64,000 nucleotides of DNA from Chloroflexi bacterium bin125 (GTDB lineage: Bacteria > Chloroflexota > Dehalococcoidia > Bin125): assembly GCA_002239025.1 (NCBI GenBank), contig MPNM01000016.1, forward strand, positions 1-64,000, given 5' to 3'. The position numbers and the translations under genes were made by a program. Shown here piece after piece: positions 227-18,501 of the stretch. The notes beneath the pieces were generated by a model. That model worked only from the letters and a program-made list of their open reading frames with translations, did no database searches and was not told the DNA's origin. The stretch's first letter is position 1. Each line of letters starts with the position of its first letter.

Positions 227-1252
227 CTACTCTGGCTTGCGTCCGTGGAGGAAGTACATCGGTGTAAAGATGCCCAGCCGACCGGCCTCGGCCATCGCTG
301 CGGCACACAGGTTCAGCTTCTGCGTGACATTGACCGATCCTTGCGGTACCACTCGCAGCGTTTCAAGCACTCGCAGTATGTTCGTCGTCAACTCGCGTCC
401 AATCCTCGTACTGCGAAAACTGGCAACGGACATGCCTGAGCCGACGAGCGGCTCGTACCAGGGGATAGAGGGACCAGGTTGGTTGATCAGGTCTCTCGTC
501 TCCAGCACCTCGAAGCCGGCATCATGCAATGCCTGATCGACCGTCGGACAATCGTCGATGTCGAGCAAACTGCCGCCAAGTTCGATATCGGCCTTGAGCT
601 TCAAGTGATATGCATCGTTTGGGTCGAAGCGATCGGTCAGACAGTACTCGTATGCGCCGAAACAGCCGCCCGGCTTGAGCACGCGAAACACCTCGCTGTA
701 GACACCGAGCTTGTTCGGCGCGTGGCAGGTCGCTTCGATGTCGTACACGGCATCGAATGTGTTGTCGGGCGTTTCGATGTTCATAAAGTCACAGTGCAGG
801 AACTCGGCCAGATCGGATAGCCCCGCTTCCTGGGTGAGCGTCTGCGCACGCTTGATTTGATAGGCGTTGGTGTTGACGCCAACGATGTTGGCGCCGGAAA
901 AGCGAGCAATCTCGATCAACGGACCACCGATGCCACAACCGATATCGGCCGCGAGCATGCCCGGTTTTAGACCGAGCTTGAGCGCCAGAAAATGCTCGTG
1001 TCGCGCGAGCGACGCCTTGAACGTCTCTCCGGGAACACGTGGCGCAAAGTGAAACGACCGGCCCCAGCCGAACTCGTAGAAGTCGGTCACCAGGTCGTAG
1101 TACAGATCCGCAAGCTTCCGGAAATCGTTCTGCTTCGTCTCCAGGTCACCGTCCTTGGCGTGGTAGAAGCCACGCTCGTACTCGTTGACGGCCGGAGCGA
1201 CGCCATCGGTCTGTTGCTTTTCCTTCAGAACATCAGAAAGTTTGACCGCCAT
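227..1252 (-). CDS. Sterol 24-C-methyltransferase-like SAM methyltransferase
   Basis: A 341-residue class I SAM-dependent methyltransferase. It carries the hallmarks of the Erg6/SMT family: the aromatic Y-Y-D...F-Y-E-F-G-W-G block at residues 51-64, the SAM-binding motif DIGCGIGGP at 103-111, and the diagnostic YDIEATCHAP at 170-179. It also has the usual C-terminal SMT region, and its length fits the family. In eukaryotes SMT alkylates C-24 of the sterol side chain. No sterol synthesis genes (squalene epoxidase, oxidosqualene cyclase) are visible in this window, so the substrate could be a scavenged host sterol or another lipid. Family assignment is strong; the exact reaction is inferred. 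It is transcribed divergently from the hydroxypyruvate isomerase gene, with about 117 bp between them. Confidence 0.85.
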   Translation of the reverse strand: MAVKLSDVLKEKQQTDGVAPAVNEYERGFYHAKDGDLETKQNDFRKLADLYYDLVTDFYEFGWGRSFHFAPRVPGETFKASLARHEHFLALKLGLKPGMLAADIGCGIGGPLIEIARFSGANIVGVNTNAYQIKRAQTLTQEAGLSDLAEFLHCDFMNIETPDNTFDAVYDIEATCHAPNKLGVYSEVFRVLKPGGCFGAYEYCLTDRFDPNDAYHLKLKADIELGGSLLDIDDCPTVDQALHDAGFEVLETRDLINQPGPSIPWYEPLVGSGMSVASFRSTRIGRELTTNILRVLETLRVVPQGSVNVTQKLNLCAAAMAEAGRLGIFTPMYFLHGRKPE

Positions 1253-15837: not shown

Positions 15838-18501
15838 CTAGCCTTCTTCCTCCTCTTCGGCCTTGGGCACTCGCCAGGTGATCGGCTCGGCTACGTCGAT
15901 CCAGTAGAAGCCACCAGTCTGGAACCTACCGAGCGTGTTGAAGCCTTGGTACTGGTCCAGTCGTGGAAAGTAACCATCCCACTGTTGAGTGAGTTCGTTC
16001 CAGAGGTAAATGGCGCTGACGAGATCGTTGACATCGGTCGGCCCGCCGACACCGAGAAGGGCCTCCCTGATTGACAGGCCATCAAGTCCGATCCACTCGA
16101 ACTGGCTTAAACCGGCCTCGATTCCGATCTCCACGCTGTCGTTGTCGACCACAAGCACTGTGGCCGCGCCTGCGCTGGCGTGTGGATCGAGCGCGTCTGT
16201 CCCTACGATCGACGCCTCGATCACTCCATCTAACTCCGGACTCGCGTCGTCTACGGTGGCCAGGCTCAGCGTGGTCGTCTGCTTGCCGACGCCGAAGGTC
16301 GCTTGAACGACGTTTGTAGGGTCGCCGGCGAGCACGGCATCAGAGTCACCGATGGCCACGTCCAGCGTGAGTGCCCGTGAGATTGTGCCGGTGCGGGTCA
16401 GGACGAAGGATGCCTGACCGCCTTCCTCGACTTGTGGCTGTTTCGCTGTGATCGCGACGGTGGGCGTCAGACCGCCGAAGGCGACATCCGGGAGCTCGTC
16501 GCCAATACTCGTGTTGCGGCGGATGATGTCTGCCAGGGTTGTGCCTCGGATTTGTTCAAGCAGGTCGGGATTGGCCAGGAAGTAGGGATCGTTTTCGTAC
16601 CAGAACCGGTCGCCGTCTCGCAGGCGACGGAATTGGTCAGAGATGATCGTGCGGAAGGTCAGGCCAACGTTGGCGCCGGCCACGTGGTCTTCGGCCAGTC
16701 CGCCCGGCCAGAGGTCGATCAAATCGACGTCGCCATAGGCCTCACGCAACTCCTCCTGAACCACAGGATCCGACGTGATGTCGGCGAAGCTCGTGACAGC
16801 TGGTAGGCCGTAGGCGACGCGAACATGGTTGTAGCTGGGGACACCGTGATCGCGTCCGCGTTGGATGTTCAGCGAGGCGAGGTCGCGGCCTGGACTACCT
16901 GGCGGGCCGAATAGCAGGTTGCGGATCTGGTCAACTACTTTCGCATCGACCTGCTGCGCGACCTGACTGGACAGACCGCGCAGGAATCCCGAGATGCCAT
17001 ACTCGGTCACCAGTGACGGGGTGAAAAAGGCGTCGGCAAGTGAGAGCGCAAACTGCTCGCCATCGTCGTCAATGCGCATCAGCATCGGCGACAGCAGCGT
17101 GTGGCCGATCCGGTAGGCGGCCGTCGAAAACTCCATGGCGATGGTTGGATCGACTGTAGGGTCGTAGCCGGTGTAGGGCTCGATCGCACCCGGCCCGAGC
17201 AACAGAGGCAGGAACTCGTGGAATGTGATCGCGTGCACCTGGGCGCCCACAATCTTGCGAGCCAGTTCATAGATTTCCTGGCCGGTGAGGTCGGACTGCT
17301 CGGCAGCGATCAGGCCGGCCAGACGGTTGTGCTCGCGCACGAACAGAGTTTGGATTGAGGTCAGACCGACCTGCTCATTGGCCCGAATATCGCCGGCCAG
17401 GAATAGATCACGATGTCCAGCGAAGCGAACATTGCCGTTGTCATTCTCGAGCCGGTCAACGTTGTAGGGCATGAACCGCCCGTCGCCTGATGTCTTCAGA
17501 CGACCGGTGCCATCGTTGGTTCGCAGCGCCATCGAACGGAACAAGGAGGAGCCATACACATTGGACGCGTCAAGGAAGGCCGTCAGTTTGTTGAACTGCT
17601 CGCGCGGCTGGTCGACCGATACCCCAGTTTCCGGCAGGAATCGGGATCGGACGAACTCGATCGTTTGCCTGCCGGTCCTGAACGGATCGAACACGGGGTC
17701 TCCAATGGGAACAGGCATGGCGAGGGGATCATCGAAATTCTCTGGCGTCAACGTCATGTCGTGGTCGAGAAACTGTCCCCACTGCCAGAACATGTCTGTT
17801 ACGAGGACCGAGCTAGGCAGCGACTCAGGCTGCGCCAAGAGGGCATTGCTGATTGCGCGGGGATCGGGGCGTTCGGGCAATCCGGCCGTCATCGCGTAGT
17901 CGAATGAGACGCCGGCAACCCTGAGAAATTCTCTCTCCGCCATCCCGACCTGGGGGAACAACCTGTTGTTACCGTAACCGTCAATCGAGCGCGGTTCGAA
18001 CGCGGGACGGTACTCCTGCAGGCTCAGCAGCACGCTGGCTCCGCTGCGCCAGTCCAGTTCGACGCCGTACCAGAAGAACTGACGACCGTTGCCCCGGCTG
18101 TTAGCGAAGTTCAACCAATGATCGCCAAGTTGAAGTGCTAGTTGACCAACATCGTCGGGCAGGGCCGGAGAGAAGTCGGCCACAACATCCCAGGCTTCGG
18201 GGGCTCCGCTTCGACGGTTGTAAAGAATGTTGTTGGCTGTGTACGTCGTGCCTTGCCAACTAAAGCTGTCGCTGGAGAGATTTCCAAACGCGCGCTGCAA
18301 GTAAGTGCCGTATCCAAACATACCAGTATGATCTGACACCTGTAAGGTAGCCGACCACAACTCATTGCCACGTGTGGTGATCGATGAGGTCTGAGCTGGG
18401 CTCTGTGCGACCGCCGACCCATGAACAACCGTAAGCAATGCGAGCGATGCAACGCCTGCAAGGAGCAATAGCCAGGTGCTGCGCTTGAGTGAGCGTGTCA
18501 T
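15838..18501 (-). CDS. Secreted animal-type haem peroxidase with Calx-beta domain
   Basis: An 887-residue exported protein. A signal peptide covers residues 1-32 (cleavage after SAVAQ). Residues 45-165 form a beta domain with ELWSATLQVSD and FSWQGTTYT, a module seen in exported bacterial proteins. The peroxidase domain (about 195-695) has the distal His in QFLDHD at 243-248, the FVREHNRLA helix, the proximal His in AYRIGHTLLSP (His467) and LNIQRGRDHGVP. A Calx-beta-like domain follows (about 700-800). The C-terminal roughly 75 residues contain a W-rich motif before an acidic tail. Bacterial relatives of peroxinectin/myeloperoxidase oxidise halides or phenols outside the cell. The call is solid; substrate unknown. 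Confidence 0.92.
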   Translation of the reverse strand: MTRSLKRSTWLLLLAGVASLALLTVVHGSAVAQSPAQTSSITTRGNELWSATLQVSDHTGMFGYGTYLQRAFGNLSSDSFSWQGTTYTANNILYNRRSGAPEAWDVVADFSPALPDDVGQLALQLGDHWLNFANSRGNGRQFFWYGVELDWRSGASVLLSLQEYRPAFEPRSIDGYGNNRLFPQVGMAEREFLRVAGVSFDYAMTAGLPERPDPRAISNALLAQPESLPSSVLVTDMFWQWGQFLDHDMTLTPENFDDPLAMPVPIGDPVFDPFRTGRQTIEFVRSRFLPETGVSVDQPREQFNKLTAFLDASNVYGSSLFRSMALRTNDGTGRLKTSGDGRFMPYNVDRLENDNGNVRFAGHRDLFLAGDIRANEQVGLTSIQTLFVREHNRLAGLIAAEQSDLTGQEIYELARKIVGAQVHAITFHEFLPLLLGPGAIEPYTGYDPTVDPTIAMEFSTAAYRIGHTLLSPMLMRIDDDGEQFALSLADAFFTPSLVTEYGISGFLRGLSSQVAQQVDAKVVDQIRNLLFGPPGSPGRDLASLNIQRGRDHGVPSYNHVRVAYGLPAVTSFADITSDPVVQEELREAYGDVDLIDLWPGGLAEDHVAGANVGLTFRTIISDQFRRLRDGDRFWYENDPYFLANPDLLEQIRGTTLADIIRRNTSIGDELPDVAFGGLTPTVAITAKQPQVEEGGQASFVLTRTGTISRALTLDVAIGDSDAVLAGDPTNVVQATFGVGKQTTTLSLATVDDASPELDGVIEASIVGTDALDPHASAGAATVLVVDNDSVEIGIEAGLSQFEWIGLDGLSIREALLGVGGPTDVNDLVSAIYLWNELTQQWDGYFPRLDQYQGFNTLGRFQTGGFYWIDVAEPITWRVPKAEEEEEG

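Follow-up and report, generated by a model that had tools for sequence, protein, structure and literature searches.

A putative sterol C-24 methyltransferase of Chloroflexota in a genome with an apparent de novo sterol pathway

The methyltransferase homologue and its relatives

The window, by which we mean the whole stretch of 64,000 nucleotides that was analysed, corresponds to contig C50 of a genome of 3.68 Mb (G000; 96.7% complete, 2.4% contaminated) from the class Dehalococcoidia of the phylum Chloroflexota. Judging from its kinship to MAGs from sponges, the organism is most likely a sponge symbiont; the related jk18x MAGs were obtained from Caribbean Ircinia sponges (PMC9531527). Near the start of the window a gene on the minus strand encodes a homologue of sterol 24-C-methyltransferase (SMT; Table 1). 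Its neighbours (genes for a xylose-isomerase-like TIM barrel, an SDR and glycine cleavage proteins) are unrelated to sterols, and the matches to oxidosqualene cyclase (OSC), squalene epoxidase (SE), ERG4/24, P450 and SQS_PSY were all located on other contigs, in line with the initial annotation, which had reported that the window holds no sterol biosynthesis genes. Further along the window, at 15838-18501 on the minus strand, there is a gene for an 887-aa homologue of animal haem peroxidases (Pfam An_peroxidase, E = 1.3e-146).

Table 1. Location of the features described in the text (C, contigs of the window's genome; L, SMT and related loci).
Feature	Location	Strand	Remarks
Sterol 24-C-methyltransferase homologue	window 227..1252	minus	341 aa, complete ORF, ATG start; ortholog with same start in G007
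Region I aromatic block YEFGWGRSFHF	window 1046..1078	minus	residues 59-69, Tyr81-Phe91 in Erg6 numbering
SAM-binding motif DIGCGIGGP	window 920..946	minus	residues 103-111
YDIEATCHAP signature	window 716..745	minus	residues 170-179
Sterol_MT_C domain (PF08498)	window 230..421	minus	residues 278-341
Second SMT of the genome	C29 19686-20717	plus	50% identical to window SMT
SE-OSC fusion	C29:20748-24173 (L097:12749-16174)	minus	1141 aa
CYP51	C29 24101-25501	minus	nearest CYP51 entry 7jj1, 5.5e-104
ERG24-like delta14-reductase	C29 25522-26631	minus	nearest delta14-sterol reductase 4quv, 3.7e-74
Rieske protein, SdmA-like	C29 26624-27745	minus	NCBIfam SdmA model best match, below curated cut-off
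SdmB-like protein	C29 27780-28874	minus	NCBIfam SdmB model best match, below curated cut-off
236-aa membrane protein	C29:29084-29794 (L099:2085-2795)	plus	probable EBP-type isomerase by fold
Second ERG4/24-like reductase	C21:32309-33448		same genome, outside C29
GPP34-P450 fusion	L044:5027-7102	minus	GPP34 1.4e-25, p450 3.6e-32
GPP34-P450 fusion, copy in window's genome	C12:396507-398537 (L159:7508-9538)	minus	
GPP34-P450 fusion, copy in window's genome	C30 (L158:765-2885)	minus	
KshA_C-type Rieske oxygenase	C12 391293-392474		beside GPP34-P450 fusion (L159:2294-6171, Rieske and MMPL)
MMPL transporter, sterol-sensing domain match	C12 392726-395170		beside GPP34-P450 fusion

In a Pfam search the predicted protein matched Methyltransf_11 (E = 8.7e-19) and Sterol_MT_C, a domain specific to SMTs (E = 1.3e-21, 76.9 bits against a cut-off of 21.7), both above the curated cut-offs. 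None of 14 control genomes contained a match to Sterol_MT_C, which indicated that the match in the window was neither due to chance nor that of a generic methyltransferase. The YDIEATCHAP signature and the SMT aromatic block, which had been named as diagnostic of Erg6-like enzymes, are both present, the latter corresponding to Region I, the aromatic sterol-binding segment of Erg6 (PMC5711494). Residues D103, G105-G107 and G109-P111 of the SAM motif and E173, A178 and P179 of the signature were invariant in both SMT alignments, and the Erg6 residues D79, Y81, E82, W85, H90, E108, D125, E195, H199, D276, W286 and Y287 were conserved in a comparison with a provisional yeast sequence. Identification as a tocopherol methyltransferase or another non-sterol methyltransferase was rejected given the presence of Sterol_MT_C; in NCBIfam no SMT equivalog matched the protein, and all matches listed were far below the cut-off.

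The position of the window SMT among its relatives was examined in a tree with 136 rows, of which 132 were bacterial SMTs, three were provisional eukaryotic reference sequences and one was E. coli Cfa, the sole outgroup. The tree was obtained by a quick search with SH-aLRT values as support, and long branches were flagged in it for Cfa, AtSMT2 and Erg6. The window protein was found inside a clade of 53 bacterial SMTs (clade B, SH-aLRT 99) and thus grouped with the SMTs and apart from Cfa, the one non-SMT sequence of the tree. The phylogeny with eukaryotic and bacterial SMTs, proposed as a check by the initial annotation, agrees in this way with the domains, the motifs and the gene context of relatives that the protein is an Erg6-like SMT homologue. 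Clade B includes at least eight phyla (Chloroflexota, Actinomycetota, Acidobacteriota, Pseudomonadota, Nitrospirota, Binatota, Gemmatimonadota and Latescibacterota) and most of its members come from sponge-metagenome MAGs. It is separate from the SMTs of sterol clusters, including the second copy in the window's genome, as well as from a 26-row clade C, and the provisional eukaryotic references were not nested within it. Members of clade B adjoin sterol clusters at two loci (L034 and L035), and at the alphaproteobacterial locus L034:892-4351 three tandem SMT genes, two of them of the window's clade, are located beside a fused SE-OSC cluster. A DUF4395 gene repeatedly adjoins SMTs of the window's clade in Chloroflexota MAGs (L006:9097-10701, minus strand, L007, L009, L011 and L012).

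The structure of the window SMT was predicted with confidence by AlphaFold (pLDDT 84.7, pTM 0.85). The nearest solved folds were diverse SAM-dependent small-molecule C- and O-methyltransferases, an SMT structure was absent among the PDB fold matches listed, and the viral fold matches were generic methyltransferases. Such fold matches would also be compatible with an SMT-family enzyme that acts on a non-sterol terpenoid, e.g. squalene or another linear triterpene, for which Botryococcus, with its methyltransferases of squalene and botryococcene, provides a precedent. Squalene is presumably available in the cell, given that contig C51 of the genome encodes two SQS_PSY (SQS/HpnCD-type) proteins and one squalene-hopene-cyclase-like protein. 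However, plant SMT1 and yeast Erg6 share Region I and the remaining conserved blocks with the window protein, and the clade members beside sterol clusters at L034 and L035 also speak against a substrate of this kind, which we consider quite improbable.

An ortholog with 76% identity and the same N-terminus (MAVKLSDVL) was found on a 342,903-base contig of G007, a genome of the same genus. Over the 341 codons the two genes differed at 61 first, 43 second and 168 third positions, and this excess at third positions is what is expected of a gene under purifying selection. Elsewhere in the genus the window SMT type was seen only in G007, indicating that the gene is dispensable. This patchy occurrence and the second SMT copy in the genome could suggest a redundant or decaying enzyme with little activity, but the ORF is intact, all motifs are kept and the sequence is conserved between the orthologs in the manner described, and decay is thus a very improbable explanation.

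A candidate sterol pathway elsewhere in the genome

From the lack of sterol biosynthesis genes in the window it had been suggested that the substrate may be host-derived, and that the rest of the genome should be searched for SE and OSC. Both were found as one fusion on contig C29, where together with the second SMT and several further genes (Table 1) they make up an apparent pathway for sterol synthesis de novo. The window gene is located outside this cluster. The fusion contains SQHop_cyclase_C and SE in one open frame, and its cyclase half carries the OSC-type DCTAE motif and best fits the oxidosqualene cyclase model TIGR03463 (2.6e-227), though below the cut-off of the model. The pathway genes on C29 (OSC, SE, CYP51 and others) contradict the need to borrow a host sterol, and for this genome the suggestion of a host-derived substrate was therefore not supported. 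A binning error is an unlikely source of these genes given that G007 also holds the SE-OSC fusion together with an SMT of either type, window and cluster, and is syntenic with the window's genome around the window SMT.

SE and OSC share one open frame in the window's genome and at some 20 loci from many phyla; at six loci from Myxococcota/Deltaproteobacteria the match was to the OSC part alone, which is unfused there. Within the window's genus the fusion is near full length in 11 of 15 genomes, and a twelfth (G011) contains a fragment of the OSC part. Fused SMO/OSC homologues were already mentioned by Brown et al. in their methods (PMC10070321).

Homologs of the 236-aa membrane protein of the cluster were found at nine further SMT loci, the majority of which also contain a sterol cluster. 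A search of the whole genome for Pfam EBP gave no match and EBP matches to this protein were sub-threshold only, a profile search against PDB sequences gave only noise, and a scan of viral contigs with the protein gave no match. For its predicted structure (pLDDT 67) the top PDB fold match was human EBP (8w0r, E = 0.025, probability 1.00), and all other fold matches listed had a probability of 0.11 or lower. Based on this model the protein is likely a divergent EBP-type delta8-delta7 isomerase.

Distribution in the class and the GPP34-P450 fusion

The occurrence of SMTs was surveyed in 294 genomes from 184 genera of the class, and 31 of the genomes were found to contain at least one. About 14 of these 31 had no OSC-type match (squalene-hopene-cyclase-like matches or none) and carried mostly clade C SMTs, which share about 40% identity with the window SMT (L117, L129, L136-L142, L144, L147, L149-L153). 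The window-type SMT was seen in four genomes of the class, three of which have SE and OSC (G000, G007 and G287, the last with the two in separate frames and with internal stops in the OSC reading) and the fourth of which has a fragment of SE (G225).

A fusion of GPP34 and cytochrome P450 adjoins many SMTs, including those of genomes without a detected OSC. In the class it is present in 31/294 genomes, 30 of which also have an SMT, and the two are found in the same 9/184 genera, the exceptions being G225 with the SMT only and G004 with the fusion only. Chance co-occurrence was rejected (Fisher test, p = 1e-38 by genome and 1.8e-15 by genus). A common sponge habitat may explain part of this co-occurrence, and the adjacency of the two genes argues for a functional link: the fusion is located at most 1.5 kb from the SMT in 13/26 rows of clade C and 4/53 rows of clade B, counts in which many loci are too short to be judged. 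For the P450 part, bacterial CYP51 was among the top-scoring PDB entries. Genes for the Rieske oxygenase, the MMPL transporter and the fusion stand beside a clade C SMT in G201 and G016, and the same set adjoins SMTs at L164 and L166; the copy of this locus on C12 of the window's genome is SMT-less. The literature covered contained nothing relevant on GPP34 or GOLPH3 in connection with bacterial P450s; this does not prove novelty, and the link with SMTs is possibly new. It could mark sterol modification in bacteria outside the clusters published so far, and help to tell probable sterol makers from genomes that perhaps only modify host sterols.

Tentatively, and with somewhat more doubt than confidence, the Dehalococcoidia SMTs could be viewed as part of an undescribed sterol-remodelling system, with the GPP34-P450 fusion as its marker and the KshA_C Rieske and MMPL proteins as further components. 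Such a system would take up host sterols and alkylate them in genomes without OSC, and would operate alongside de novo synthesis in the window's genome. GPP34 (Golgi phosphoprotein 3-like) might then anchor the P450 to the membrane, and the window SMT would supply the methylation for the SMT-less locus on C12.

An alternative is that the window SMT methylates sterols of the sponge host while the C29 SMT serves the cell's own cluster. The distance of the window gene from the sterol cluster, the SMT-bearing genomes without an OSC-type match and the possible role of the MMPL protein with its sterol-sensing domain, the KshA_C Rieske and the GPP34-P450 fusion in uptake or remodelling are all compatible with it. 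However, the window enzyme is outside clade C, the genomes with its type of SMT have SE and OSC or a fragment of SE, and uptake would be unnecessary given the candidate endogenous pathway; we regard this alternative as unlikely. A host-derived substrate may fit the OSC-less, mostly clade C genomes better, and for the different-clade SMTs of these relatives that part of the initial suggestion is still plausible.

Proposed function and comparison with known systems

Taken together, the window gene probably encodes a SAM-dependent sterol C-24 methyltransferase, with a delta24-sterol made by the cell via the C29 pathway as its most likely substrate. In the proposed mechanism SAM would be held in the Rossmann pocket formed by DIGCGIGGP, as in Erg6 and SMT1, and the side chain of the delta24-sterol would lie against the aromatic Region I while the methyl group is transferred to C-24. 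A hydride shift followed by proton loss would give a product of the 24-methylene or delta25(27) type, and additional methylation rounds may follow. The delta24-sterol itself would be made from squalene by the SE-OSC fusion and then by CYP51, the delta14-reductase, SdmA/SdmB and the EBP-like isomerase, and the window enzyme would be a stand-alone second SMT beside that of the cluster. The sequence family, the motifs, the gene content of the genome and the position in the tree are observed, and the activity, the substrate, the number of methylations and the expression of the window SMT are inferred. Alkylated steranes would not have to come from eukaryotes if abundant sponge bacteria combine C-24 methylation with sterol synthesis of their own; this genome, which has a candidate pathway and two SMTs from separate clades, allows such a coexistence to be tested in one Chloroflexota lineage. 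That bacterial SMTs bear on the use of alkylated sterols as eukaryote markers, as the initial annotation had pointed out, is supported, though this point was made earlier, in publications on other SMTs from bacteria (PMC10070321, PMC9531527).

Like yeast Erg6 and Arabidopsis SMT1, to which it is 44% and about 48% identical, respectively (provisional reference sequences), the window SMT has the full-length domain plan with Region I, the SAM motif, IEATCHAP and Sterol_MT_C; unlike these two it is bacterial and belongs to a clade of its own. Brown et al. (2023), who assayed 24 metagenomic SMTs, reported that bacterial SMTs from sponge metagenomes methylate desmosterol in vitro, that three of them make 24-isopropyl side chains and that some homologues were inactive on desmosterol and 24-methylenecholesterol (PMC10070321). 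The window SMT resembles these sponge-metagenome homologues, some of which are located in sdmA/sdmB sterol clusters, but it comes from Chloroflexota, and the main text of that study makes no mention of Chloroflexi. Horizontally moving steroid clusters have been described in sponge symbionts of ten phyla, Dehalococcoidia included (Kelly et al. 2022, PMC9531527), and the C29 cluster has the same plan as the cluster of the Ircinia symbionts in that study (ERG24-CYP51-ERG7 with a flanking SMT), whereas the window SMT is located outside such a cluster. The ERG7 of this plan was identified here as an SE-OSC fusion, and the SdmA-like, SdmB-like and EBP-like neighbours identified here were not annotated by Kelly et al. 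(PMC9531527). Functional bacterial SMTs and the steroid clusters of sponge symbionts are thus already published, and the window gene adds another member to them.
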